Part shown: positions 13,094-64,000 of the stretch, piece after piece
How the letters are laid out: the number at the start of each line of letters is the position of its first letter
Position numbering within the stretch: the first letter of the stretch is position 1
Assembly: GCF_000004825.1 (NCBI RefSeq)
Contig: NW_008805064.1
Coordinates: forward strand, 2,542,001 to 2,606,000
Direction of reading: 5' to 3'
Length of the DNA stretch: 64,000 bases
DNA from: Heterostelium album PN500
Lineage: Eukaryota > Evosea > Eumycetozoa > Acytosteliales > Acytosteliaceae
Translations under genes and position numbers: made by a program
Notes under the pieces: model-generated
The model's input: the letters and a program-made list of their open reading frames with translations, nothing else
Told to the model about the DNA's origin: nothing
Databases searched by the model: none

Positions 13094-16000
13094 AATTTTT
13101 ATTTTAAAAGTGTTCATATTTTATTTAAATTTGTGTTTAATTAAAACAGAGTTGGTTGCTTTAGTATGTTGACTTCTATTGGACATTAGTTTGAATTTTA
13201 CAGTTTTAACCCTTGCCAGTGGCTGATCAGGCTGGCTGTTCCGGTGATTGAGGATCGGATGATCTTATTTAAAGTGTAGGAGTGGTCTCTGATGTCTAGC
13301 TGCTTCAGATAGTAGGGTAGGTCGTGGACAGTAGGTTGACCTTCTTTGGTTGTCTCTGTGTTGTATGTACCAAAGGCACCAATGATTATAGGTATGACTG
13401 CTACATTGTGGTCTGGGTTACTCTTCTTAAGTGCGGCTGCTAGTGGTTGGTATTTTTCAATCTTATCTCGGCTTCTTTTAACAATGTTGTTGTCATATGG
13501 TACTGATATTTCGATGATTTTGATTGATTTCTTGGTTCGGTTCTTAATGATTAGATCTGGTTTGTTGGTTTTGGTCAGTGCATTATCTATTCTGGCTTCA
13601 TGTAGGATCTCAATGGTGTCTGACTGGTAGACTGCGCCTGGCTTGTAAGGTATTCTGTGGAACTTCAGCATCTCTTTGAGTATCACTTTCACTACCATGT
13701 TGTGTCTTGGTACTATACATAGTAGTTTCATCGCGTGGCATGAGGATACAATGTGCTCTATGGACTCTCTTGCAATGGCACTTTCTACATTTTGGATCGG
13801 TTACGGCATTTCCCATGATTCCTTTTGCTGCAGTGCAAGCCATAGGTGGTCAACATGTCGCGGTATGAATCTCCATTGGGCTATCCAGTTTCTTGCCATG
13901 TTTTCTCTGTGTTTGATCCAGAATTTGGTTCTAGCTGTTGGTTCGATTGGGTGTTGTTCTCTATATACATTCTTGAGGTGAGCTGAAATGGTGTTTGTGA
14001 TCGTAGGGCTGCCATCGTGGTTGTGTAGTATTGTTTCTCCATCCTTATCTATTTGCCATTTTCCATCTTTACTGAATATGAGTTTGTAGTCAAATGATTC
14101 CATGTGCTGGTGTATAGTGGGTTCTTCTTTTCAAATGCATAGTTCATAAGGTCTTGGTTTCTCCTCACCGAGTGTAGTTTAACTGCTGTGATGATTTTGT
14201 AGACCTTATATTCTAGTATTAGTTCGTTGAATCCTCTTCCACCTTCTTTCCTATCCAAGTGGAGGAGATCTCTATTCATGTTTCTATGTAATAGTCCTCT
14301 CTTTGAAAGGGTCTCATTGAATTCCTTGTTAAGTGTATCTATGGTGTAGTCTGGGATGTCGATGAACCAGTAGTATCTCAGGTATCCGACTACCAAAGAG
14401 TTAAATGCCCTGGCTAGGTTCCATGCTGACAGTTTGGAGTTTAATATTAATTTAAATCTTTCTCTCGCCTCTTTCTGTATATTGAAAAGTGTTTTTTTCT
14501 GATCGACCAATCGGTGTTGTAACATTCCTAAGTATTTATATAGATTTTCCTCGTCTACTATCGGTATCTCTTTAATTTCCTCCGGTAGCATATCCTTATT
14601 AATTCCTTTTCCAAGAATTCCACATTTCTTTTTGTTGATCTTCATTCAAATTGATTTGAATGCTTTGTCTGTTTCCATGAAGGTGTTGATTATCTCTTCG
14701 GTCATACGGGAGTACATCTTGATATCGTCAATGAACATAAGGTGGGACAGTTGGGTGTTACTTATTATTGGCGCTTTAGTAATTATCTTTATATAGTATC
14801 CGACTGGGTTTATGGTAAGGCAGAACAGGAAGGGACAGAGGGCATCACCTTGGAAGATTCCATTGGTAATCGGTATTGTAGTTGTGGTTTGATTCTTGGA
14901 TATGAATAACTTGGTGTTCCATTTGCTCATGAGTTTTTCAATGATTGATCTGGCTTTCCGGTCTATCTTGTGCATTTGTAGTATGTGCTTGATCCACCTG
15001 TGCTTCGTTGAGTCATATGCTTTGGTAAGGTCTATCCATGCCACCTTGATGTCTGGGTATTTCTCACAGAATAAATTGTCTATGAAGAGGTTCTCGTATG
15101 TTCCCCATACATCGGTCATTCCACCTCTCTGTACTTCTTCCATCAGTTGGTTGTTGACTTTGGTGTGCTGGTGGAGGTGCTTGGTTACTATTCCTGTTAA
15201 TATCTTACATGTGTTGTTAATGCATGTGATTGGTCGGTAATTGGCTTCGTCCTCTTTGTCACCTCCCTTGTGGATCCGGTATGTTATTCCTTCACAGAAC
15301 CATTTAGGGAACTCCATGATATCCAAGTTTAGGTACTCATTGAAGGCTTCGGCTAAGTCCTCATGGTATCTCTTAATCCTCTTAATCCAGTAGTTGCAAA
15401 TTCCATCTGGGCCTGGAGCTGACCAGTTCTTCTTGTTTTTAGTGTAGTTGGATATGTCAGCTCCTTCGATTTCAAACTTGGTCTCTTTGATGCTCTTGAA
15501 TTGGTTGCTATCTTTCACTCTTTGTATCCATTCAAGCTCGTCGTAGTTGGTTGCTTCCGTAGATGGTGGGTTCCAGAGTTGGCTCCAGAACTCAAATGCT
15601 CTCGTTGTTGTCTGTATTTCCTGTTGTTGCGTGTTGTTTTGGTTATTGTAATGAGTATGCTTTGCTTTCATCTTTTAGCATCATTTCATTAATGTATCTA
15701 AACTTTGCTTCTTCTCTTATCTTTTTGATGTAGTCTATGTATCCAGTCTTCAACGCTTGTAAATTCTTTATCTTCGCTTCTACACAGTTCGCATTGAACG
15801 TCATATACTGTCTTTTGATTAGTTTAACTACGTATCTGGCTGGTTTCATATTCTTCTTGATCTTATCTACTGTACTCTCTAATGCTCTTCTGAGTTTGTT
15901 GATTTTCTTGATCTTATTCGCTATTTTCTTTATCAGTTTCTCTCCTTGGTCTTGTTTGATATGGCTGGCGTCTTCGTTGGCTCTAACTGCTGCTGTGGCT

Positions 16001-17320: not shown

Positions 17321-17599
17321 ATTAATATAATTATAAAAAAAATATAGAATATTTGATTTTAAAAAACAAAATCTTTTTAAATAAAAATAGAGTTTTAATA
17401 ACAAAATGATTAGTCATTTGTTCCACTAAATATTTGCAAATTGAAAAAAAGTGGGTGGTATTAAATAAATAGACATCACAAAAAAAGATATGGTGGGCTA
17501 TTTTCATTGTGTTTGCAAATTTTTTAAAGATCTTAAAAACAAAGGTGGATTTAGAAGAGATTTTCTAACAATTGTTTTCCTCTCTATTTATTAAATATT

Positions 17600-17693: not shown

Positions 17694-17792
17694 AATGACA
17701 TTTGTTAAAGTATTTTTTATAATCAAAATAATATTATATATTAGAAAAAAAGGAGACAGCTAAAAAGTCAAATATATATCAAAATAAACATT

Positions 17793-17893
17793 TGTTTAAT
17801 TCCATTCAATGACAGATAAAAAACAAATTAAAATTTGGGGGTCAACCACCCAAATTTTTTTAATTTGAATCTTTTTTTCCGTGGAATTAAACA
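17793..17893. repeat. Nested inverted repeat (about 100 bp)
   Basis: Outer arms TGTTTAATTCC (17793-17803) and GGAATTAAACA (17883-17893) are perfect complements. Inside, CAAATTAAAATTTGGG (17824-17839) pairs with CCCAAATTTTTTTAATTTG (17849-17867) around a 9-nt loop. This could be a MITE or a structured transcript. No copy was seen elsewhere in the window. Confidence 0.55.
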
Positions 17894-18015
17894 TTTGAGT
17901 TATATAAAAATCTATAAATTTTATATGTGTGTGCAACAGCTTGGTCCTCTATTATTCTAAGAAATTAGAATAAATAAAAACAAATATTTAAACATATGTT
18001 AAAAATCATTTAAAA

Positions 18016-18125
18016 CCCCACACCTGACCAGACATAGCGAAAATAGTGTTCTGCAGTCGCCACAAACTTTTTTTCATGCAAAAAAAAAAAAAAATGTGTG
18101 AACAGCAAGTGGTTCGCTATGTTGG
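18016..18125 (+). repeat. Diverged hairpin unit, copy 2
   Basis: Same motif order as 17600-17693. Here ACATAGCGAA (18032-18041) is a perfect reverse complement of TTCGCTATGT (18113-18122), a 10-bp stem enclosing about 70 nt and followed at once by a T-run, as expected of a short Pol III-type transcript or a foldback element. Confidence 0.45.
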
Positions 18126-18520
18126 TTTTTTTTTGTTTTTCTCACTAGCTTTAATTGACTTTTAACATATGTAGAAAAAAATTGAACTGTTTTAAAATTT
18201 CACTTACAATGGTTTGTAAAGGATTAGTTGTTTATCTGTTTATGGGGATTGGTTGATAATGATATATTGTAAAGAGCATCATAATTTTAGCTATTGAGTG
18301 TGGTGAATTATTCTTATTCAGATTTTGATTCCTTATTGATTAGAAAGATTATATGATATATGTTAAAAAATTGATAGATTTCTAGATAACTCAAATGTTT
18401 ATTTTGTGGTTCTGGTGCATTTAATCTTTATGAATTAATGAATCCTATAAATAATCAAACAAACAAATTATTTATTTAAAGAAATTAAATAATATTTACA
18501 TTATCTACAAATATTTTTTT

Positions 18521-18736
18521 CACTTCATTTAATAAACATCATTTATTTTTTGTCATATTATATTTGTTTTTTTACACTTCATTTAATAAACATCATTAAT
18601 TTATTATAATATTAAATTGGTTTTTTTACACTTCATTTAATAAACATCATTTATTTATTATCATATTATATTTGTTTTTTTACACTTCATTTAATAAACA
18701 TCATTAATTTATTATCATATTATATTGGTTTTTTTA
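18521..18736 (+). repeat. Four-copy 54-bp tandem array upstream of the Fanzor gene
   Basis: Copies start at 18521, 18575, 18629 and 18683, each exactly 54 bp and each beginning CACTTCATTTAATAAACATC, with a T-run at the end. Copies 1 and 3 share one variant of the middle and copies 2 and 4 another, so a 108-bp dimer appears to have duplicated. The array ends about 35 bp before the ATG at 18771, placing it in the promoter/5' UTR. Confidence 0.9.
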
Positions 18737-18770: not shown

Positions 18771-21700
18771 ATGTCTGATTCAGACTTTTACTCAGAAACT
18801 GATTCAGAGTATGTATCAGAATCTGATTCGGAAACGAATTCAGAATCTGATTCGGAAACGAATTCAGAATCTAATCCACCACCACCAACCACTTGCGGAA
18901 CAAGACATCACTCACTTTTTGTTGGTCAAAATGAAGAACCTTCAAATAGACCTACTCGTTGTAAAAATTGTTTAACTCTTGCTTCTTTTCTTTCTACACA
19001 TAAACATTTAGATAAATCGTCACTTTGTTCAACTTCATATCATTCAATAATAACAGACTCACCTTCAACATCCACCAACAATAATGATATTTGTGAATTT
19101 TGTCAATCGTTTCAAACATATTTTGTTAAAAAGTTTAATACAGAACCACCTATTCAAAATAATAATAATCTTCCTCCAACTATTCATTCATCATCAAACG
19201 CTTTAAAATATCAAATATTTCAAGATTTATTACGACAACGTAATACAAATCAACTCAATCTTTTTGAAAATAAATTTTCCAATATTTTAAAAAACTCTTC
19301 AATCTCGCATGTTTTAAGAGATTTGAATGAGCAATCATCTATCATCACCAACCACCAATTAACACTATTTGGAATTTCCCCACATGAATTCCAAAATCAC
19401 CAACTTATCGAAAATCTTATTAAAGATCTATCAACTACCAAATCAGCACAATTAAACACCACACAATATCTTTCTATTCTATCAGATTTATATAATTCAC
19501 CCGATATAATTATTTCAAATAATATATTATTATCATATAAAGTTAATAGTGATAAAATAAAAAAAAGAAAACATGAGGATGAAGATGATACTAATAAGAA
19601 TAATAATAATAAGAATAATAATAATAATAATAATAATGAATTTATTGATAATAATAAAAATAAAATAAATATTATAGAAAGTAAAATAAAAACAAGAGAA
19701 CTAAATCTACGACTCATGTTGATTGGTTTACCAATTATAAGATTACATCCACTCACAAATGATAAACATATAATTGATTATTATAAATATATTAAATTAA
19801 ATAATGTTATAATAGATTATAATTATATATGTAATAATTTTATTTATATAATAAATAAACATTCATCTTCATCATTATCATTATCTTCAACAACAACAAC
19901 AACAACAACAACACAGGATTTAAATCTTATAAATAATTATATATTTAATAATATAGAAAAAAAGGATATCTCTGGTATAGATTCCTTACTTGATTTCACA
20001 AAATTTGTGCAAAAATCAATATCAAAAACACCACTCACATCATTATTGTCAAACACCATTAATAGTTTTATTAAAAAAATAAATAAATCAATAAATGTAG
20101 AACTTTTTTATGAAATTCATAAAAAAGTCTCTACTTTTTATTTATTTTTAATAATATATAATATTTTAATTGAAAGTAAAATCATTAAAATAAAATCAAA
20201 ATCAAATTATAATGGTGAGTTATTTTGTGATAATTTATAAAGTTACTTTTAAAGTAAAGCTGTGAATATACTAATAAAAATATTTAAAGATTTTATTTTA
20301 TCTTTTTTTTCAATAGATTCCACACCTCTTCAGGTGCTTGAATCCATCAATAAAGCAAATAATGTGGCTTATTTTAAGCCAAAGAGAAGCCACCAAGAAT
20401 TCGGCCACCCGATTCCCGGCTCTCACCTGTCTTCCAAATTTGTCTTGCTCAGCGAAGAGGTAGTCAAACAAATAAACAAACATGGTAACAAATATTGTCT
20501 AGAGGATAGGTTCATTGATAGAATTAGAAAGATATATCCTGGCTTATCTAGTAACCACTTGTGGAATAATTTTCACCACAAAAGACAGGATTCAGATCCC
20601 AATCCTCCAGAGTCTTCTGTTGTTACCATTGACTCGCTCCTACAGATAGCGAACAAGCACTCCATTTCTCTCCCCAAACCTACTACTAGGGAGATCACAT
20701 CATTTAAAGCCAACAGGCTTTGTCCGCACCACCTTTCATCTTCCGATAAGTGCACCAAGGATTGTCAATCAGTGTATGGCGATTATCAATGGAATTTTAA
20801 TATGTTTATTAATGGAATCACAGACAATTTTGACGAATTCAAGAAAGTGTTACCATCGTACAGATCTACATTCACAGACACCCTCAATATGGGTACTCTA
20901 CCAGAGTCACATTTGTCAACGAAAGTTAATTTTTCCAATCGATCACCAACTCTTCCAACCAATACATTCGATTTGGATAAACAACAACATGTTCCTCATC
21001 AATTAACAAATGTTCCGGCTGTTCATTCATGTGATTCCAACTTCATGCCGATCAATGTTAAAGATCATTTTGATATCTTGGTTATGACCAGTGATCCAAT
21101 ATCACAACGACATCTCGCTTTCAATAAGACGGAGAATGACATATGTCAAACCTTCAAGAGTTTGTTTATCAATTTTGGTATCCCTATGAACGTTAAGCCA
21201 AAGTCACCACCTACAAAGAAAACAACTTCATCTACGAAACCTTCGAAAGGTAAAAAGCCGGAGAGAAAGTTCAAGAAGAAGAACAAATCAAAGACAGTAA
21301 AGCAACAAATCAAGTGTCCTACAAAATCTTTAGGATTCACAGATACTTATCCACGAGCAAACGTATCTGAACTCTCGATACCTGCATCCGAGGTTGAATC
21401 AATCAACGAGTGGTGTGAATTGATAGCTGCGGGTCAACATAAAGTCATATGGTTAACAGGAGAGAACTCCCAAACACTATTCATCTCTACGATGACTGGA
21501 AAAGACGACACTCAGGTCTTTGATATCACAGAAAGACTACGTTCCCGAATTCCGATATTTTTAATGAAGCGACGACTGGTACCACTTGAAACAGAGGATT
21601 CTGTAGATTCCATTCTGATGTGCCTTCCGCATCCAGCCTACAAGAGCTACGACAAATGGTCAAAGGAGGCGATGGAATTTTCACAATGCTTTTTGGCAAA

Positions 21701-23244
21701 GAAGGGTTCACCGATCGATATCGATAGCATCCATGCAAGAATGTCGCTGAGACCATCGGTAAAGGGTATCTACCGCCCGAGTTGGATGACCAGGAAAATA
21801 GGTGACACCTCTATTTATCTGGCCGACTATGCAGGTCCAGAGTTCAGAAGTAACGGGGATACTCTTTCCATTACTAGGGCTGTTGCTAGGCCATTTAATC
21901 CTGCCGTGTCAAAGGATAAGCTTTACCTACCTTACCAAATGCCCGGGTCCAAGAGAGAAAAACAACATGTAGAAGATTTCAGGTCTATATCTGATACAGA
22001 TCCAACGTGTTACTCTGTGGATCCTGGCCGAAGTTCCCATGTCAGCTGCTCTTCACATGGTTTGGTAAGGAGAGCATCCGTAAATCAGTATTACTCTTGG
22101 AGGAGTAACAGGGCATCTAAAAAAATGCGAAGGCTTCAGAAGCGCTTTCAATTATTTGAAAGACAAAATCCCTCCTCAGAGTAGATATATAATATTTAAT
22201 TTTTTAATTTTTTTTACTAACATTTAATTTTTTTTTTTATTATCAAAGCCAATCCATTGGCTAGATTAGATTACTTTAATCTGAATTGGTCGATATTTGT
22301 AGAATATATTGCTTTCAAAATGGATCCAAGGCATAAATATCTTCGCCGAATCAATTATAGGTTTGGCCAAATCGCAAAGAGCAAGTTGGTCAAACAACTT
22401 ATTCCGACGCCAGCTTCTCATATGAGTGGAGGTTTAGTGTGTAAGTTTATTTTTCTATTTTATTTTTTTTAATTAATAAATTATTTATTATACTAACTAA
22501 TATATTCAATTTTTTTTTTTCCATCTCTCTTTTCTTCTTTTTTCTCTCAGTTTTGGGTGCTTCAGAATTCCGGCACAACTCCAAGGGCCACCGTAGTTTC
22601 ATCTCTACCAAGGGGTTGAAAAAACTCCTCGAACAACACCAATATAGAGTCGTTATGGTGAACGAATATTGTACTTCAAGAGTAAGTATTGTTTGATTTA
22701 AAAAAAAATTATATTTAAATCTAAAGATCTAAACTAATTTTATTTTTTCTTTTTTTTTTTTAAATCTCAAACTATATTTCAGGTTTATCATGGTACCTAT
22801 CTACGAGAAGAGAAGAATCTGATGGTTGCTATCAATGACCAGTGCGAACACGAGAGTCTACCAAAGGTTGAACCAACCAAATGGCCACCAGATAACATAC
22901 CGCCGGTGCCACCGACCAACCAACCATCGACTGTCTTCGAGAAAGTCAGAGCTGACTATGCCGAACTGGTCGAATTTGGTAGTGACTTGAATAGTCAAGG
23001 TTCAAAGCAGGAGAAGCTTTTGAACTACGACTACTACAGTCACTACTCTATTTACAGTACCGAGTTGAACCTTAAAAAGACTCAAGTGCCCACCAGAGAC
23101 TGGAAACGAGTTTTGGCCAAAGATGGTTTCCTATTTAATAGGGATGTGAATGCTGCCAGAAATATTCTATATTTGGGGCTATTCATGTCACTGTATTCCT
23201 TCCGTCCAAAGGTGTTCATGTCAGTACGCAAATACACAGTCTAA
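18771..23244 (+). CDS. Fanzor (eukaryotic TnpB-like RNA-guided nuclease), five exons
   Basis: Exons 18771-20214, 20317-22180, 22265-22440, 22551-22681 and 22783-23244 give about 1358 residues. Exon 1 encodes an acidic Ser/Asp/Glu start, two CxxC pairs (RCKNC, ICEFC) and Asn-rich, low-complexity sequence. Exon 2 is less AT-rich and has a Lys-rich, NLS-like patch near 21180-21310. The C-terminal half matches Fanzor/TnpB: RuvC-I SVDPG (D about 1050), a helical insert with many Arg/Lys, FISTKGLKKLLEQHQYRVVM then NEYCTS (RuvC-II E about 1200), and NRDVNAARNIL (RuvC-III D about 1326). All three acidic residues are present. The usual CxxC...CxxC knuckle between the last two motifs is not recognisable (TSRVYHG in place of TSxxCxxC). 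The exon 2/3 acceptor is uncertain: the better-looking AG at 22247-22248 would break the frame, so I used AG at 22263-22264. Family role: omega-RNA-guided DNA cleavage, often carried by transposons. Confidence 0.8.
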
Positions 23245-23345
23245 TGTCTACTCCCTAAGTTTTGCCGATAAGTCAAACGCTAACGATCATAAGATTCAAT
23301 GTCTTATAATACAGTTCGTTAGTCAAGTTAATTGCCGTTTTTAAA
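23245..23345 (+). ncRNA. Candidate guide (omega) RNA region after the Fanzor stop
   Basis: The 100 nt after the stop are clearly less AT-rich than the flanks and can fold: CTAACGA near 23280 pairs with TCGTTAG near 23318, and inside it ATAAGA pairs with TCTTAT. Characterised Fanzor and TnpB loci encode the guide RNA at the 3' end of the nuclease gene, running into the element's right end. Position and structure fit, but transcription, processing and a guide segment cannot be seen from sequence. It might also be a decayed tail of coding sequence, since another frame stays open to 23344. Confidence 0.35.
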
Positions 23346-24372
23346 ACCAATAACTGTATGTATTTTTTTTTTAATTTTTTATTAATTTAATTTTGTTTAT
23401 TAATTTTTTATAATTTGAATTTTAGTACCTCTAAGTGTCCATTTTTTATTTTTTCAAAACATTCATCCCACACGAATAAAGAAAAAAATTTTGATTTCAG
23501 AAAATAATAATTAATTTATTTAAGTTGAAATAGTTTATTTCTATAACTTTGATATGTAACAATATGAGTAGTCTACTTTTTAAATTAATTAAAAAATTAT
23601 TAACAGCATAGTCAAATGCCATAGTTGTACAACCTTCACTCCTATTCTCATTCAACCATTTTATTACTTCTAATTTAAGAATATATATTATATTATTATG
23701 AAGAAAATTAAAAGTATAAAAAGCTGTAAATCAAATCTAGATTTAAAAATGTTTTTAACTTTGATATTTTTTTTAATATCTCTATGTAGCTCTCTCTTTG
23801 CTTGTTCATTATATTAGTTTGTATTTTTGTAAAGAATTTTTTGAAAATTGTATCTGAAATTATTTATCCTATAATTTTACTTTATTTCTTATGGCGAATA
23901 AGGTACTAAAACATCTAAATTTATAGGTATTCATTTTTTTAGAAAAATATATTTTTATATTTTTTTCTTCACCAGAATTAAAGGGTAATCACTGGAAGGA
24001 GAGAAAGTTATTTATATCCCTTAACATTTTAAAAAATGAATCTTAAAATAATACAATCAAAGCTCAGTAATTTTTCTTTTTTTTTTTTCAAGAATTCTCT
24101 ATGGTTTGACTTATTTGTAGTTATACCAATTACGAACCAAACACGTTTCTATTTATACTTTTTTTTTTGCAATTTTTTTTCTTCAAATAATCAAAATGCT
24201 ATAGAATGGAATGATTGGTTAGCCAAAAAGTATAAAAGTGTATGTTTTTTTAATTTTATTTCATTGATTTTGAACATCTTTTGACTAATAAGGTAAATAA
24301 ATGTTCAAATCATACATTTCCATTTCCGTTTAAAGTAAATACAATCAAAGAACTTACCTACCTTCCTTCCTT
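23346..24372. other. Non-coding AT-rich stretch downstream of the Fanzor gene
   Basis: About 1 kb of AT-rich DNA with many T-runs. The short open frame at 24036-24284 is Phe/Asn-rich and looks like chance. I found no terminal inverted repeat matching the upstream flank by eye. Confidence 0.5.
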
Positions 24373-25012
24373 TCATTGTTGTGTGTTTATTTTATTTTTC
24401 AATTTAACTTCGTGCTCCACACAACAAAATTGACATTTACAGGCGGAATCCATCGTTATCTTTGAACAAGCTTCCGTTCGGTTGTGGTGTAAAAACTTTA
24501 CTATTGAGAAGTGACCATTGTTTGCAGCAGCATCCATAGACGAAACAGATACCATGGTACCGAACACATCCTTCTTAGTGGCATGAAGAAATTCAATGGG
24601 TTGCCAAATGGCCATATTTAATAGCGGCATCGTAGAATGCTTTATAATCGATATCCGATCGTTTTAGATCCTTGGAATACACAAACTCTATTAAATCTGT
24701 ATTGCCTTGGGTTGCTGCTGTTGAGAGTGATTGTATATAGGCATCGATATAGTCATCGAATAGTCTCTGTTCAATCGATGTTTGATTGATAATCAAATAG
24801 TTTAACACGCTCTTATATCTATCGAAACACTTATATCGAATCAACTCCTCTGGAAAGCAAGCGAGATCTTGCCAATCACATCTTAATGAATTTCTCATTA
24901 AAGCAACATAGTGAATCTCTCTAACCGATCTGAATATAAGTTTACTAATATACACTGATTTAATTATCTTTTTAAAAAGAATAGTATTTCTTATTTCTAC
25001 TTCTTTTTCCAT
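24373..25012 (-). pseudogene. Truncated, frameshifted ankyrin-family gene
   Basis: The N-terminal frame (24593-25012) starts MEKEVEIRNTILFKKIIKSV and shows the usual family leader (CFDRYKSVLNYLI) and the repeat FYDAAIKYGHLAT. The repeat continues in the other frame (24373-24630) as IEFLHATKKD...MDAAANNGHFSIVKFLHH then NRTEAC. The switch maps to the GGG run at 24598-24600, where one extra base separates the frames. After about two repeats the protein ends in unrelated sequence, whereas intact members (44034-46301) run to about 750 residues, so this is a broken or fragmentary copy. Confidence 0.7.
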
Positions 25013-26096: not shown

Positions 26097-27074
26097 TCAG
26101 AAGTTCGAACGATCGTTGTTGTTGCTGTATGCCGCGTAATCCATTGCATTGACAGTTGCCGTTCCCTTTCCATTTTGGTGGAGCCATTTAAGAAGTTCTA
26201 AATGGCCGTGTTTAGCAGCGATATCCAAGTAGGCATATTCTATTTCATCGAGGTTTACATTGTGATTGATGAGCCATTCCAACATTTCAACGCTTCCACC
26301 CTTGACCGCATTGGAAATCAACGATGATTCATAACTTCGAAGTGTGATCTTACCACGTTCCATAAGTAGTTGTAATATATCCAGACGGCCAATAGACACA
26401 GCATTTGCCATCGATCGCCTTATGGTTAGCTCCAGATTCGCTTTGTTTTTAATACGTTGTTCCACTCTACCTATCAGCCACGACAACAACTCGATAGACT
26501 CTCCCATTGGCGCTAGCATCAGAGCTCGTTCATAAGATACATCGGTTATGAAATCCGCTAGTAATCCGTCCAAATACTTTACAATCTTTAATCTTCCAAG
26601 TTTGGAAGCATACTCTATCAGCTCTAACCTTATATTAACACCAATACCAATATCCAACTCCTCTAGCAGATATACCAATATTCTCATATTATCACTATAG
26701 ATCGACATGTTTATTGACTTTATAAGATCGATCTGTTGATCGTAGACCAATTGTGATATCTCTATAGATCGATTGCCAGCCATTATATTGTTCCTTGATT
26801 GTTTAACATTGAAAAAGTTGAATGGTTTCATTGCTATTCTCTTACAATAGGTGTACCAAGATTGATTCCGAAGACACTCCTGTATGATATATCGATAATA
26901 TTTAGATAGCTCGTCAAAATAACCGTATGCAACCAACATATTTGGTGTCACCAATAACTGATTCCATTTGTAGACGCGCAATCTTTCTTCAGAATTAATA
27001 AAATAAACATTGTCAAAAACTTTTATTCTCAATATTATATTGTTAAATATATCTAAAAATAATTTCTTATCCAT
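26097..27074 (-). CDS. Ankyrin-repeat protein (325 aa)
   Basis: Single exon starting MDKKLFLDIFNNIILRIKVF. The leader (to about residue 110) is typical of the dictyostelid ankyrin family. Then come diverged repeats (IEYASKLGRLKIVKYL, AVSIGRLDILQLLM, AVKGGSVEMLEWLI, IAAKHGHLELLKWLHQNG). It ends in the middle of a repeat (AMDYAAYSNNNDRSNF), shorter than the 755-residue relative at 44034-46301, so the C-terminus may be truncated. The family is greatly expanded in dictyostelids and its function is unknown; ankyrin repeats usually bind proteins. Confidence 0.75.
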   Translation of the reverse strand: MDKKLFLDIFNNIILRIKVFDNVYFINSEERLRVYKWNQLLVTPNMLVAYGYFDELSKYYRYIIQECLRNQSWYTYCKRIAMKPFNFFNVKQSRNNIMAGNRSIEISQLVYDQQIDLIKSINMSIYSDNMRILVYLLEELDIGIGVNIRLELIEYASKLGRLKIVKYLDGLLADFITDVSYERALMLAPMGESIELLSWLIGRVEQRIKNKANLELTIRRSMANAVSIGRLDILQLLMERGKITLRSYESSLISNAVKGGSVEMLEWLINHNVNLDEIEYAYLDIAAKHGHLELLKWLHQNGKGTATVNAMDYAAYSNNNDRSNF

Positions 27075-27466
27075 TTTCTATACATAAACACTTTATGAAA
27101 AAATATCTTTAACTAAAATAATTATTTATTTAATTACTTTAATTTTATTTTTTTTTTTAACTTTCTGCAGAGAATTATTTTTAGAAATTTTTTTACACTT
27201 TGACAATAAATTGCATCAGCTAGTCAACATTTTTTTATTTATTTTTATTTAATCTTTGCATTCTCTGGGATTGATAAGTATTTATCACGATATTCATGTA
27301 CAAATTAAGAATACTATTGCTTGGAATCATAATAATTAGAGAAAAATAAAATATTGACTAATCAATTACTAGACATATTTATTTAAAAAAATAATGTATA
27401 TTGATACATTAGGTTAATGATCAATAGAATGACTGAAGATAGAGTTATAAAAAATCTATTATTTTA
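27075..27466. other. Intergenic, nothing seen
   Basis: AT-rich spacer between the start of the ankyrin gene and the 3' end of the secreted-protein gene, both on the minus strand. No open frame or fold of note. Confidence 0.5.
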
Positions 27467-54071: not shown

Positions 54072-57000
54072 CTAATATTTTTCACTAATACTTCCTTTTA
54101 ACCATGCAATATAAAGTTGTTTTAGGAAGGACTTTCTAAGCTCAAGATTATCTTTGATTCTGGTGGATGCTTCACCAAATTTGTTAAAATAGAGATTTGA
54201 TTGTTCAACTATTTTGTTTTCAATTGATGAATGCACAGTTAGTGTTGACTCTGTAACATGTAAATACAATCCAATTCCATGTGAACAAATTGTTGTATGA
54301 AGAACCATAGCAGTTTCTTTTTCTTTATCATATTTAACACTATTTCCACAGAAGAGGCATATACCCTTTGGTGTATTTGCATTGACTGTAGATTCAACGT
54401 GTTTAACAAAGAAATCCTATGAAATTAAAATATAATTAGAAATGGGTGTACAAAGTTATTATTAATTTAAAATGTTTTTTGTAAGTTATACTTACAACGT
54501 ATTTCTGAGGTAGATCAATAAATTTCGGGGTCACAGGAGGAAGAGAAAAGGAAAGGAAATGATATTTGAATTTAGAAAAATTCTTATCTTGGTACAAAAA
54601 GTTTGGAAGTACCTCTCTCCAATTGGGAAGCTCAAGTGATTTCAGCAGAAACTCTACAGATGAGAATGTTTCCAATGTGATTGGGACTTGATGTTGGTCA
54701 ATGTTGAGTGGTTTTTCAAAATTTGTTGTAACGCAATGTTTGAAAAGCAGTGACTTTCTCAAGAATGGAGTTAATGCTTCATCCAATGTATTGGCAACCT
54801 TGGCATAGGTTTCTTTTTGATCTCCATCAGAATCCTCAATGAATTTAATGAACGATTCCATATTGCCTTTATACCAATCATCTCCTTGTTTATCTGTCAT
54901 TCTACCGCTGGGGGTTATCAATCTCTTGATGGCATTTGAAAATACAATAAAAATCAAACGCTCATATGCTTTTCTAATCTGTAGCTTTGAATCTGAGGAA
55001 TCGTTGTTGTTGAGGTAATGGTTGTAAGTTGCCAAAATGAAAGGATCGTAATCGGCAGAGGAATCTCCCCAGAGATCGAACGGTCCGGTATTCTCCAAAT
55101 CTACGAATGTCTTTATATTGAAATAGAGAAGTCTTAATGTTTTCAATCTTCTCTGGAATTCAGTTTCACTGAATACATAATATGGCACATCATATTCTTC
55201 ATTATAGTAATCTATAAGACGCGAAGTTACTTCGATACTCTCGATCAGAGTCAATGGATATTTCCATAGAAACTGTTGAACATGCTTTTCTGTAATGTCC
55301 GGCTCAGATCTGAAAACGGTATCACAGACGATAATGATTTCCATGCAGTCTTTTTGAATGTCTTTGTTGCGACTTTGGTTATCAATAGGCAAGAGAATAC
55401 AAGACACTCTGTTGCACAATGGACATTTAAAGAAAGTTCCAGGTGTTACAAAGCTATCAATACATGACTTGTGAACATAGTGATCACAACATCTTACATT
55501 CAACGGATATCCAAGTTGAGATAAAAACAATTTTTCATCTACATTCTGAGGGTCGGTTGTAGATGTATAGTAAATCGCTCCGGTATCTGTATATTCCTTT
55601 TCTACTTCCAAAGGTACAGCAGGATAATGCTTGAGAATGGTTTGTCTCTTGGATAGAGAACCTGTATGGCTTCCCTCAACTCCTCCGATGGCACAGAGTG
55701 GATCGGAACTGGAATTACGTGAACTCTTACAGGAGAGACATACAATGGCGTTGGCCTCAGTATCAGCGTTGCTAGATTCTTCATTGTCAAATTGGTCATT
55801 GTTCTGAAGGAATTGGAGTTGTTGTTGCATCATCTTCTCTTTGATCATCATTTGTCTCTTGAGTGATTCCTCCTTCTTGATTCTCTCTTCTTTTTCTGTC
55901 TCAATGTTGATTACCTCATCGATAGACATCTTACGGTTGGTGAAATATTGATTGACACTTGAATCGAATTCATTGACCGAAATCAACAAGTTGCAAATTA
56001 AATTCTTCTTGCTGATAAACTTGTGTTTGCACTCGATAATTTCAAATAGATCAGTTACCAAATCAAAGATACTGATTGGTTTGATGGTATTTGAAGTGCT
56101 GTCGACAATAACTTGATATGGTTGAACAATATTCAAAATTGAAATTGGTTTCTCCATTTGTTGATTGTTGTTGTTATTTTCATTCAATAGATAGCTCTTG
56201 AAAGTTGATCTAATGTTTGAAACTTCATCATATCGAAGAGTATTCATTGTTGATTCTTTAAAGTTTCTCATTGCCATCGACAATAAATAGAGAATATGGT
56301 TGGCAGCTTGATCCAATTCACTTTGATTGTTGGTTGGTGATGGTATAAAGTATTCAGAATCCTTAAAGTTTGACAATGATTCGAATTTAACTTTCATCTG
56401 GTAGCTTGGATGGACGAATGACAACAATGTTGAGAATGCGATCTGGTAGATCAATGGTTCATCAAACAATTGATTGACTGCCGATAGATTTGGATGAAGT
56501 GCATCTAATTTACATGGCAATGGGAACGTCGAATATTCACTCTTTTGATATTCGTGATACTTTTCTAGTGTTGATTCCGGAGTGCTACGTAAATGATATG
56601 GGTAGTAATAATCATAACGATCGAAATACTCTGGTTTCAAAGAATGTTTCTTGGAAGCACCAGATACAGTTGAAACTTCTTGGATTGCTTTCTCAACATC
56701 ACTCTCCAGATGTCTACTATAGAAATCTCTTCTATTAATTACCAATTTTGAATGATATTCAACACTGTCAAACAATGATTGAATGATACTATATCTAACT
56801 TCTTCATAACTGTGCATTGAGCTCTTTCTGAATTGTAATACTCTGATTACCAATGTCAATAAATCATTCAAACAATGTGGATATTCCTCTGTTATAAGAA
56901 AATATAAAAAAGTCAGTTACTATATTGCAAATGTAAATGTAAATTTAATATTTTTTTAATTTACTTACTTGTTGATTTATAGTTTGAAGTAAAAGTACTG

Positions 57001-59694: not shown

Positions 59695-62600
59695 TTAATG
59701 ATATTTTTCATGGATATTACCTTTTAACCAAGAAATATACAGTTTCTTTAATGCAGCTTTGTTTAGAGTGAGATTATCCTTAACTTTTGAACTTGCTTCA
59801 CCAAATTTGTTGAAATAGATATTGATCTTTCCTTTCATACCGCTGTTGGTATTTACTGAGAGCTGTGGTTCAACTACACTCATCAACAATGCTAGTCCGT
59901 GTTGACAATCAACGTTGTGATTGACCAACTCGTTGTCACAGCAATTCTCATAACATACAACTCTACTACAATGTAAACAAACACCTTTGGGGAACTTTGA
60001 GCAACTCCTGGCACACGGGACTGATACAAATTTAATTAAGAAATCCTATTTGTTTTTAATTGATTAAAACAATAATTATTAAATTAGTATAAATAAATTT
60101 TAATCATTACTCAAAATAAATATGAATGATTAATACTTACAATATAAAGCTCGGGGAATTTGATAAATACCGGTGTCACCAGTGGCAAACAAAAGGAAAT
60201 GTAATGATTGGAGGTGAGTAACGAGTATTTCTTTTCTTGGTACAAAAAGTTTGGAAGTACCTCTCTCCAATTGGGAAGTTCAAATGATTTCAGCAGAAAC
60301 TCTACGGATGAGAATGTTTCCAATGTGATTGGAACTTGTTGGTCATTGTTGAGTGGTGATTCGAAATTGGTTGTAACGCAATGTTTGAAAAGCAGTGACT
60401 TTCTCAAGAAGCTTGTCGTTACTCTGTCCAATGTGGATTCTACCATTGAAAATTGTTTATCCATTGATCCAGTGCCAAACACATGGGTATCCTGAGTGAA
60501 CAAGAGGAAATACTCCAAAATATATTCATATGATTCTTCTCGCTTCTGTTTGTCTGGTTCTTCGATAATATATCTGTCAATTGCACTTCCGTATGCATAG
60601 AAAATCAAACGTTCATATGCTTTTCTAATAAGTATGTTTAAGTCTGAGGAATCGTCGTTGTTGTTGTTGTTGTTGAGGTAGTGACTGTAAGTTGCCAAAA
60701 TGAATGGATCATACTCGGCATTGGAATCTGACCATGGATCGAAAGCTTCAGTATTCTCCAACTCTACAAATGTCATTATATTGAAATAGAAAAGTCTGAG
60801 TGCTTTCAATCTTTTCTGGAATTCAACCTCACTGAATACATAGTATGGCTTATCGGTATCGGTGTTTAGATAGCATAGTTGACGAGTAGTCATTTCTATG
60901 ATTTCAATGAGTACCAGTGGATACTTCCATAGAAACTTCTGAACAACTTGATCTTCGATTTTCGGAACCTGATCGTACGTGATATCGAAATCAACGATCT
61001 GTTGAAGACCAATCTTTTGCACATATTCGTTGCGACTTTGGTTATCGGTGGGCAAAATAAAGCTTGAAACTCTATTGCAAAGTGGACATTTGAATAGTGT
61101 TCCTATTGAAGAGAAGCTTTCGAAACATGATTGATGGATGTAATGATCACAAATACGAATATTAATGGGGAAGTTCTGTTGGAATAGGTATAGCAGTTCG
61201 TGGTGATTTTGATCCTTCAACTCTTTAGCTAACATCACTCCACCTAGAGTAGAGAATTCTTTTTCGATATCAGGGCCGATTCTGTCATAGTGCTTGATGA
61301 ATGTTTGTCTTTTGGAGGTAGAGGTAACGCCCATACCCTCAAAGTGTCCGATGGCACAAAGTGGATCGGAACTGGAATTACGTGAACTCTTACAGGAAAC
61401 ACATACAATATTGTCAGATTCCGTATCGTTATTGTTGGATTCTTCATTGTCCAATTGTTCATTGTTCTGAAGGAATTGGAGTTGTTGTTGCATCATCTTC
61501 TCTTTGATCATCATTTGTCTCTTGAGTGATTCCTCCTTCTTGATTCTCTCTTCTTTTTCTGTCTCAATGTTGACGACCTCATCGATAGACATCTTTCGGT
61601 TGGTGAAATATTGATTGACACTTGAATCGAATTCATTGACCGAAATCAACAAGTTGCAAATTAAATTCTTCTTGCCAGCAAACTTATTCTTTGAATCTAT
61701 GGTTTCAAATAGATCAGTTACCAAATCAAAGATACTGATTGGTTTGATGGTATTTGAAGTGCTGTCGACAATAACTTGATATGGTTGAACAATATTCAAA
61801 ATTGAAATTGGTTTCTCCATTTGTTGATTGTTGTTGCTGTTGTCATTCAATAGATAACTCTTGAAAGTTGATCTAATGTTTGAAACTTCATCGGAATGAA
61901 GAGTAGTCATTGTTGATTCTTTAAAGTTTCTCATTGCCATCGACAATAAATAGAGAATATGGTTGGCAGCTTGATCCAATTCATTTTGATTGTTGGTTGG
62001 TGATGGTATAAAGTATTCAGAATCCTTAAAGTTTGACAATGATTCGAATTTAACTTTCATCTGGTAGCTTGGATGGACGAATGACAACAATGTTGAGAAT
62101 GCAATCTGGTAGATCAATGGTTCATCAAACAATTGGTTGACTGCCAATAGATTTGGATGAAGTGCATCTAATTTACATGGCAATGGGAAAGTTGAATTGT
62201 CACTCTTGATATGTTCATTGTAGGATTCCAGTGTTGATTCTGGAGTGATACGTAAATGATATGGGTAGTAATAATCATAACGATCCCAGTACTCAGATTT
62301 CAGTGTGAGTTTCTTTTCGGTCTCTGTTGTTGCCGTTGGTGTTGAAACTTCTTGGATTGCTTTCTCCAGCTCTTCATCGAGAAGTCTGAGAAAGAATTCC
62401 TTTCTGGTGGCAATAATCTTAGAATGAGTATTGATTTTGGCAATCAATGAATTAATGACATTGTAACGAACTTCTTCATAACTAGTCATCGAACTCTTTC
62501 TCAATTGCAGTACTCGAATAACTAATGTCAACATATCATTCAAACAATGTGGATATTCCTCTGTAATAAGATAATAGATAATAGTTATTATGTCAATATT

Positions 62601-64000
62601 AGAATTCTATGAGACTATAAATATGTTGATTACTACTTACTTGTTGATTTATAGTTTGAAGTGAAGGTACTGATGAGAACATTCAAAAAGTAATTTGGAC
62701 CAAGAAGTATCGATGAATATTGGAGAGTGAAAAGATCGATTGGTTGGAACGACCACTTTTGGAAAGTAGCGACATCTGGTATGTTCAAATTCTTCTGCCA
62801 AAAACGATTCTCTGATTGGGACATCAAAACAATTGGTAGAATCGAAAGGTTGAAAATACTTATCAATTGTTGGTTGTTGATCAATGATTTGATTGCTGAC
62901 TGGCTATAATCGGAAGCATTGATCATATTCATCCATAAAACACCAATCAATCTATTCAAAGGACTATGAATCGATACAGTATCAACACCATTAAAAATAT
63001 CATTCGAAGGCAATAGGTAACTATTGTTATTTTATAAATGTAAGTAAAAAAAGATGTTTGTAGTCAATCTTATTTTTTATATTTATAACAAACTTACTTA
63101 TTGAATGTAAAATATTGTTTGTTTGTAGAATTAATATAACCAAGTATTGATGTTATATACTTTAATGGGCTTACTATTATTATTATTATTATTATTATTA
63201 ATAGTTGTTAATATAATGAATGTATTTAATATTTCGTTATATAGTTATACTTTACATTTTAGCTCGTTTAATTTTATAAAGAAAGAATTTAAAGTGTTAA
63301 TTAATGATATCTCTATCAAACCAATCGATTGTAAGACAGGTAGTTCAAACTCTAATGCTTCTGTTAACTGTCTTCTGACGGGTGCAATCTCTTGAAGGTC
63401 ACTTAGAACTTTGAGGTACTCATTGATGATTACATCATTATTGAAAGCATACTCTGTGACTTGTTGGTTCTTAAAGTATCGAACGAGCAAATGATAATCT
63501 AGAAGCTTTGTTAAATACTTATCATAAGCTTCTCTCTCCTCTGAATCATCTAAATTAAATGAATTTCTTTTTTCTAAATACTTTTTCTATAATAAAGATG
63601 ATAATAAACATATTAATACGTATGTTCTATCTGATTATCATCAACAACAACAACAACAACAACAACAATGCAACAAACACTTACAACTAATGACAGAATC
63701 GAAAGAATGATATTGTGTTTTGAGTAACCGGTATTGAATGGAACGAAAATCGATGCAAGTTCAAACATTTGACAACTTATGTAGGAATTTTCGATATCTT
63801 GGTCTACATCTGCATCCAAATCTTTGTAGTATTCGAGAAACTCGTCGCACAGGACAACTTTGTATAGTGGATTACCAATGATTGCCATTAATAACAACTT
63901 TGCCTGATTAAAGTACTCTGGTATTAAATGTAGCGATTGAAGTATAATACCTATTGGAACCTTGGTTGTAAGTCCTGGAATCGTCAACTGACTATCGATC
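59695..64000 (-). CDS. UBR-box/RING E3 ubiquitin ligase, copy B, cut by window edge
   Basis: Visible minus-strand exons: 63685-64000 (continues beyond the window), 63256-63586, 63098-63173, 62641-63020, 60141-62560 and 59695-60045. Exons of 331, 76 and 380 nt have exactly the same lengths as in copy A, and every intron phase agrees. The RING reads IVCVSCKSSRN ... ICDHYIHQSCFE ... FKCPLCNRVS and the cap reads CARSCSKFPKGVCLHC. The N-terminal UBR box should lie past 64000. The central 350 residues (about 61460-62200) are nearly identical to copy A while the ends differ much more. It is expected to act like copy A in protein ubiquitination. Confidence 0.9.

Follow-up and report, generated by a model that had tools for sequence, protein, structure and literature searches.

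Bao & Jurka (2013; PMC3627910) list seven Fanzor1 families for Polysphondylium pallidum PN500 and describe Sola2-Fanzor1 chimeras (PPa-1, PPa-4 and PPa-5) whose 5′ parts are nearly identical and whose Fanzor 3′ parts differ. The Fanzor1 motif given there consists of a RuvC-I aspartate, [TS][TS] 125-275 residues further on, two arbitrary residues, a four-cysteine (C4) zinc finger and a C-terminal RD. In SpuFz1 the catalytic triad is D383/E541/D606, with a D-E spacing of 158 and an E-D spacing of 65 (PMC10432273, PMC11423790). The rearranged RuvC-II glutamate of Fanzors is placed six residues ahead of the zinc finger's first CxxC, and the Fanzor1 WED domain carries a 'TDG' motif (PMC10711439). 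The subject of this work is a gene of the social amoeba Heterostelium album PN500, PPL_02292, at positions 18771 to 23244 of a 64,000-nucleotide stretch of contig NW_008805064.1 (positions 2,542,001 to 2,606,000), referred to here as the window. Its link to the families of Bao & Jurka rests on the strain name PN500, because the old species name is listed under Heterostelium pallidum.

Judged from its sequence, the gene is a genuine, divergent Fanzor1 relative without a zinc ribbon, in a strain known to be rich in Fanzor1 families. We read it as Fanzor1-derived and do not class it as a canonical Fanzor1, because the C4 zinc finger is absent and the profile scores are under their cut-offs. The proposed kinship rests on the motifs and their spacing, a WED-like motif and mobile relatives, and not on profile cut-offs or fold. 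The explanation that we favour, with belief and doubt about evenly balanced, is that it is an immobilised descendant of a Fanzor1 of the Sola2-type transposon kind, and most likely still an RNA-guided RuvC nuclease, of 1367 aa.

Catalytic motifs and the missing zinc finger

Once four introns are removed, a single frame passes through SVDPG, NEYCTS and NRDVNAARNIL on the + strand, which is the Fanzor order that a preliminary description had read from the letters of the window. The D, E and D of these motifs are invariant in an alignment of the window gene, its paralogue L021 and a copy on contig C4, which over the RuvC part (314 aa) are 57% and 30% identical to the window gene, respectively, and the three motifs are therefore not due to chance. 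The D-E spacing is 150, close to that of SpuFz1, whereas 126 residues separate E from the last D, compared to 65 in SpuFz1. The [TS][TS] pair follows the RuvC-I Asp within the published interval, with 152 residues between D6 and T159 (alignment numbering, first row), and the RD of RuvC-III is present near the C-terminus, in NRDVNAARNIL. The RuvC-II Glu sits in NExxTS, and the Glu of ExxTS is invariant in the family; there is no CxxC here to count to, and it is by comparison with the published motifs that we read this Glu as being in the rearranged RuvC-II position. Just before RuvC-I there is a WED-like motif, RSNGDTLSITR in the window gene and RTDGISLSITR in L021, the 'TDG' position being TDG in L021, SNG in the window gene and on contig C17, and LNG in the copy on contig C4.

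The gene resembles SpuFz1, PpFz1 and GtFz1 in triad order (the third residue being N in GtFz1) and D-E spacing, probably in the position of the RuvC-II Glu and in the WED-like motif, and possibly in having a guide RNA on the 3′ side, for which a candidate is described below. With TnpB (IS200/IS605, IS607) it shares the RuvC-III motif DxNAARN; it differs in that no sequence-level similarity was found outside RuvC-III, and in lacking a zinc ribbon.

The preliminary description had identified a Fanzor with an intact triad. The kinship, the triad and the dictyostelid host stand, but it had not foreseen that the C4 zinc finger is missing: after [TS][TS]xx there is no CxxC in TSRVYHGTY... or LAKDGFLFNRD, in contrast to SpuFz1, which retains a CCCC zinc finger (PMC10432273). 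The finger is likewise absent in L021, the closest paralogue. The copy on contig C4 and the open reading frames (ORFs) on C2 and C14 keep one Cys after TS and the second-half pair of the finger. The length of 1367 aa also compares with 600-700 aa for most Fz1 proteins (PMC11423790).

Over the 861 codons of exons 2-5, the proportion of synonymous differences (pS) between the window gene and L021 is 0.80, which is saturated, and that of nonsynonymous differences (pN) is 0.37; for the RuvC part the values are 0.81 and 0.29. The amino-acid sequence is thus conserved against saturated synonymous sites, and since both paralogues stayed open over exons 2-5, selection acted for a long time.

Gene structure and relatives in the genome

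The revised five-exon model gives 1367 aa with no internal stop (the first model gave 1358 aa). The four introns, five exons and one frame of the preliminary description hold, with two refinements. An intron 1 acceptor at 20316, as first modelled, would lose DFILSFFSI; exon 2 of L021 begins AFILSLFDI, and because the FILS.F start is common to both paralogues, an end at 20289 is likelier. In intron 2, the second AG (22263-22264) keeps the frame and the first AG (22247-22248) leads to a stop, and the donor is in phase 2 in the window gene versus phase 1 in L021 and in the copy on contig C4. The public record of PPL_02292, which is the top protein match of the window gene, is a 1176-aa hypothetical protein; its model has another intron 2 donor, with 26 residues dropped (some of which align with the paralogues), and is also without two further stretches that are present in the 1367-aa model.

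Residues 137-247 and 315-479 of exon 1 are 34.5% and 35% identical to L021 (E 7e-8 and 2e-18), and residues 1-136 gave no match to L021 at E<=0.01. The acidic N-terminus with CxxC pairs that had been pointed out earlier is real sequence, residues 25-64 and 87-123 being found again in a decayed relic on contig C33. The GC content at third codon positions (GC3) rises from 0.12 to 0.40 across intron 1, as it might if an AT-rich exon 1 were a separate host gene wrongly fused to the Fanzor part. This was rejected and is scarcely credible, as L021 has the same two parts, with the same intron position and phase; it also has the same kind of GC3 jump (0.20 to 0.35), and exon 1 therefore belongs to the gene.

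When three parts of the RuvC half were used as protein queries, the searches returned at least 10, at least 7 and at least 5 rows, at six or more places, these being the window gene, L021, copies on C2, C4 and C14, and a deleted copy at C3:1.673 Mb. By reading of the sequence, L021 has one extra intron in exon 1, which is open only with that putative intron; its exons 2-5 are open. The copies on C2, C4 and C14 have 97-99% DNA identity, with a 3′ end common to many loci, and the ratio of nonsynonymous to synonymous rates (dN/dS) among these three recent copies is 0.47-0.51 (C14 being counted to its frameshift). A stretch of about 11.5 kb is common to the C2 and C4 copies, beyond which their sequences diverge; inside it lies a transposase-like gene that is transcribed divergently. 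The C14 copy meets an assembly gap on its 5′ side and has a broken Fanzor-like frame. A 183-aa part of the transposase-like protein has 14 rows in the genome, eight of them spanning at least 163 residues with an identity of at least 96%. The C17 locus has the same 5′ part, followed by another 3′ part in which VDPGRN and an RSNG motif occur; we read this 3′ part as Fanzor-like from a piece of sequence that stops before any RuvC-III. Matches of 98-99% identity to an 1801-bp segment of the 5′ part lie at C14:386991, C36, C8 and C17, and the 3′ parts of the C4 and C17 copies differ.

These transposon-borne relatives, like the seven Fanzor1 families published in 2013, had not been foreseen by the preliminary description. 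With their shared 5′ and differing 3′ parts, the copies on C2, C4, C14 and C17 agree with what is described for Sola2-Fanzor1 PPa-1/-4/-5, whereas the window gene, which has neither a transposase nor recognised ends, forms a subfamily of its own, the comparison being with the published description only. The Sola2 label is that paper's own; the transposase-like ORFs here have no significant Pfam match, and none of five transposase- or Fanzor-like pieces scored above cut-off.

Some further observations concern the relatives. A second very long Fanzor-like type is found at L067/L068 (C17:527501-535400), with VDPGRN, ORFs of 719 and 723 aa and extra CxxC pairs, and it sits on the same transposon 5′ part. 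The transposon-borne Fanzor-like protein of the C2 copy (P0002) is publicly annotated as 'proteophosphoglycan ppg4'. Two ORFs, L023 2563-3592 (+) and L024 6372-8534 (-), adjoin the C4 and C14 copies; they look like transposases of other families, which we take to be Harbinger-like and piggyBac-like, respectively.

Table 1. Features of the window gene and its surroundings (window positions unless stated otherwise)
Feature	Position	Strand	Remarks
Exon 1	18771..20214	+	Acidic Ser/Asp/Glu start, two CxxC pairs, Asn-rich middle, conserved C-terminal part; GC 23.5%, GC3 0.12
Intron 1	20215..20289	+	Revised acceptor TTTAAAG, from comparison with L021
Exon 2	20290..22180	+	Cys/His motif, WED-like motif, RuvC-I
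Cys/His motif RLCPHHLSSSDKCTKDC	20715-20765	+	In exon 2
WED-like motif RSNGDTLSITR	21846-21878	+	In exon 2
RuvC-I SVDPG, D codon	22020-22022	+	In exon 2
Intron 2	22181..22264	+	Phase-2 donor; frame kept solely via second AG
Exon 3	22265..22440	+	Between RuvC-I and RuvC-II
Exon 4	22551..22681	+	FLGASEFRHNS and NEYCTSR; RuvC-II E codon 22664-22666
Exon 5	22783..23244	+	Enlarged region without C4 zinc finger, then RuvC-III, stop
RuvC-III NRDVNAARNIL, D codon	23143-23145	+	In exon 5
Candidate guide-RNA (reRNA/omegaRNA) scaffold, 3′ untranslated region	23245..23356	+	Three predicted stems, then donor-like GTATGT
Compound hairpin	23279-23323	+	Within candidate scaffold
Tandem repeat	18514..18736	+	4.1 copies of 54-bp unit, directly upstream of ATG
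Ankyrin gene	26100-27077	-	Downstream of window gene
Paralogue L021	C3:1.36 Mb (same contig as window)		Introns at same four positions as window gene

Setting of the locus and mobility

The transposase-like protein of the relatives has no match in the window (best E=0.21), none of the 14 genome rows of its 183-aa part lies there, and there is no transposase match within 20 kb around L021 either. The earlier statement that no transposase partner is nearby thus holds as tested. No inverted-repeat pair was found around the window gene, in a weak test (9 of 10 shuffles also gave none) of low power for short or diverged repeats, and no other intact copy of its subfamily was found in the genome. There are, in addition, three decayed relics of the subfamily, these being A and B on C33 and one with stops on C6. 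Relics A and B, both broken, contain parts of exon 1 as well as DNA from upstream of the window gene. Between them lie two ankyrin genes in the opposite orientation (Pfam E 1e-22 and 3e-20). An ankyrin gene also lies downstream of the window gene (Table 1), and shorter ORFs at 23497-25012 (-) are ankyrin-like by eye; since Pfam does not confirm these, the layout common to the C33 relics and the window is suggestive only. The arrangement of the relics suggests duplication of a chromosome segment rather than transposition, with one surviving copy. A candidate transposon 5′ end at window position 17427 was rejected, as relic A runs to 17252.

Fanzors are mostly transposon-encoded (Bao & Jurka, 2013; PMC3627910), the relatives look mobile and the upstream DNA is shared with C33, all of which would suit an ordinary mobile Fanzor1 copy with unrecognised ends and transposase. 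We consider this very unlikely, given that no other intact copy, transposase match or inverted-repeat pair was found (the repeat test being weak), and that relic A extends beyond the gene to 17252. The preliminary description had proposed a divergent or domesticated Fanzor rather than a simple mobile copy. The second half of this is supported, while domestication is possible but unproven. That the gene has been domesticated by the host, to which its RNA-guided binding or cutting would be useful, for example against transposons, is in our view quite improbable: exons 2-5 are open in two divergent paralogues, neither the window nor the 20 kb around L021 gave a transposase match, no transposon ends were found (they were sought at the window copy only), the two relics flanking ankyrin genes on C33 recall the window and point to segmental duplication, and the GC3 of exons 2 and 5 (0.40 and 0.49) is within the range of six other window ORFs (0.36-0.51), but word-based, length-limited searches of a protein collection of about 5.8 billion sequences matched PPL_02292 and the C2 copy alone, which gives no sign of conservation in other dictyostelids.

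A more serious possibility, although still an unlikely one, is that a Fanzor1 subfamily has died out and left the window gene as its last near-intact relic, immobile, now functionless, impaired in the splicing of intron 2 and decaying. Unlike its counterparts in L021 and in the copy on contig C4, the donor of intron 2 does not match the first acceptor in phase, and the gene may therefore be decaying; all three other copies of the subfamily (C33 A, C33 B and C6) are broken, and the zinc finger has been lost. However, there is no stop across 1367 codons, pN is 0.37 against a pS of 0.80, an intron 2 acceptor that keeps the frame is present, and exons 2-5 of L021 are open too (its exon 1 only with one more putative intron).

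Several other features of the window are recorded here. Two short dispersed repeats upstream of the gene resemble miniature inverted-repeat transposable elements (about 17994-18181, 25 of 57 rows, and about 17790-17894, 16 of 57 rows), the latter with 7 more weak rows on the opposite strand. Just 3′ of the gene, an 80-bp stretch (23598-23677) matches many places in the genome and has a likeness to the ankyrin family, by eye only. Further upstream there is a reverse transcriptase ORF (14646-15674, -; PF00078, E 2e-17), probably, as a guess, part of a non-LTR (long terminal repeat) retroelement. Two long ORFs, 54436-56916 and 60111-62606 (-), are alike at the start and are perhaps tandem duplicates; weak UBR1/PRT6-like matches, below cut-offs, occur in the 60111-62606 ORF alone. 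Rfam and tRNA scans of the window gave no matches, and none of 32 pattern matches in viral contigs was confirmed.

The 3′ untranslated region and the proposed function

In both the window gene and L021, the first 100 nt or so of the 3′ untranslated region (UTR) are visibly GC-richer than the DNA downstream, have three predicted stems, and are followed by a donor-like GTATGT or GTAAGT. From the stop to the start of the compound hairpin there are 34 nt in the window gene and 31 nt in L021. When 600 nt were scanned in pieces of 52 nt, the piece at offset 30 ranked first among 96 in the window (z -4.0) and third among 81 in L021 (z -4.6), where the two better pieces, at offsets 294 and 300, overlap each other. 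The hairpin architecture, which was defined post hoc after both UTRs had been seen, occurs at this position in 18 of 4000 shuffled UTRs for the window and 14 of 4000 for L021, and anywhere in 98 of 4408 window pieces. Folding of the whole UTR is not significant in the window (z -1.1 and -1.8), and is significant in L021 (z -4.0). In the C2, C4 and C14 copies, a donor-like GTAAGT stands about 22 nt past the stop, and a comparable stretch was not seen by eye. Fanzor1 guide RNAs are reported to be three-stem in shape (PMC10711439), and we regard the structure here as a post hoc lead toward a candidate guide RNA. Overall structural similarity of the two UTRs was rejected as proof, its value being reached in controls (13 of 300 and 23 of 300 shuffles), and very low z-scores of the hairpin core were set aside, as its borders had been picked after the structure was seen.

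We propose that the ancestor would have been a Fanzor1 gene carried by Sola2-type DNA transposons in this genome, of which the window gene would be a now immobile descendant. The 3′ UTR of the gene itself would give rise to the guide RNA; the N-terminal REC/WED part would bind this RNA, and DNA matching it would be cut by the D-E-D RuvC site. The enlarged region in place of the finger (126 residues from E to the last D, versus 65 in SpuFz1) may make up for the loss of the zinc finger, which would then be tolerated.

With PF07282, the 314-aa RuvC part has E=9.4e-4 and the 877-aa protein E=0.43, neither of them attaining the curated cut-off, and a 290-aa piece of the copy on contig C4, in which part of the finger is kept, reached 25.6 bits, also under the cut-off of 26.3. 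An hhalign comparison of the family with four bacterial and archaeal TnpBs, chosen among 30 matches listed, scored 37.9 over 26 columns at RuvC-III (E=3e-4, probability 40), the highest of 60 column shuffles being 21.6. The preliminary description had asked for a significant Fanzor/TnpB match, and on these figures it comes through that check only by half.

A number of results weigh against the proposal, in addition to the absent zinc finger. The RuvC part scores 19.7 bits with PF07282 (cut-off 26.3), and NF040570 gives 15.3 (cut-off 100). Across this genome PF07282 matches five places, all of the window-gene family and none above cut-off, and the same search in 14 control genomes gave matches in 9, above cut-off in 6. 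A sequence search of PDB, with the protein and with the family profile, matched no Fanzor structure, and the AlphaFold model, built from PPL_02292 with one relative (P0002), is uninformative, with a mean pLDDT (predicted local distance difference test) of 29.6. The structural similarity of the window and L021 UTRs is not significant, as it is equalled by 58 of 600 pieces drawn at random from the window and by 429 of 5000 pairs of shuffles. The phase of intron 2 may mean that the gene is broken or decaying, and part of the selection may predate the loss of mobility.

In the open-licence literature, Bao & Jurka (2013) is the only work found on Fanzor together with Dictyostelium, amoebozoa or Sola2, and no further title on a domesticated, multi-exon or amoebal Fanzor was found among those listed (the print record may be wider). 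A bolder form of our proposal would be a host-retained, transposon-free Fanzor1 descendant, cutting through its intact D-E-D without a zinc ribbon and guided by its own 3′ UTR, as an independent eukaryotic parallel of the step from TnpB to Cas12; this we hold to be a long shot.

What makes the gene interesting is that an intact triad, a lost zinc finger, its size and a setting outside any recognisable transposon come together in it. If it is active, it would be a case of a Fanzor that has kept its cutting site while shedding the zinc ribbon, growing to twice the size and coming away from its transposon, which would bear on how RNA-guided nucleases escape from mobile elements in eukaryotes. Because this host is a social amoeba, a knockout could put the question to the test.

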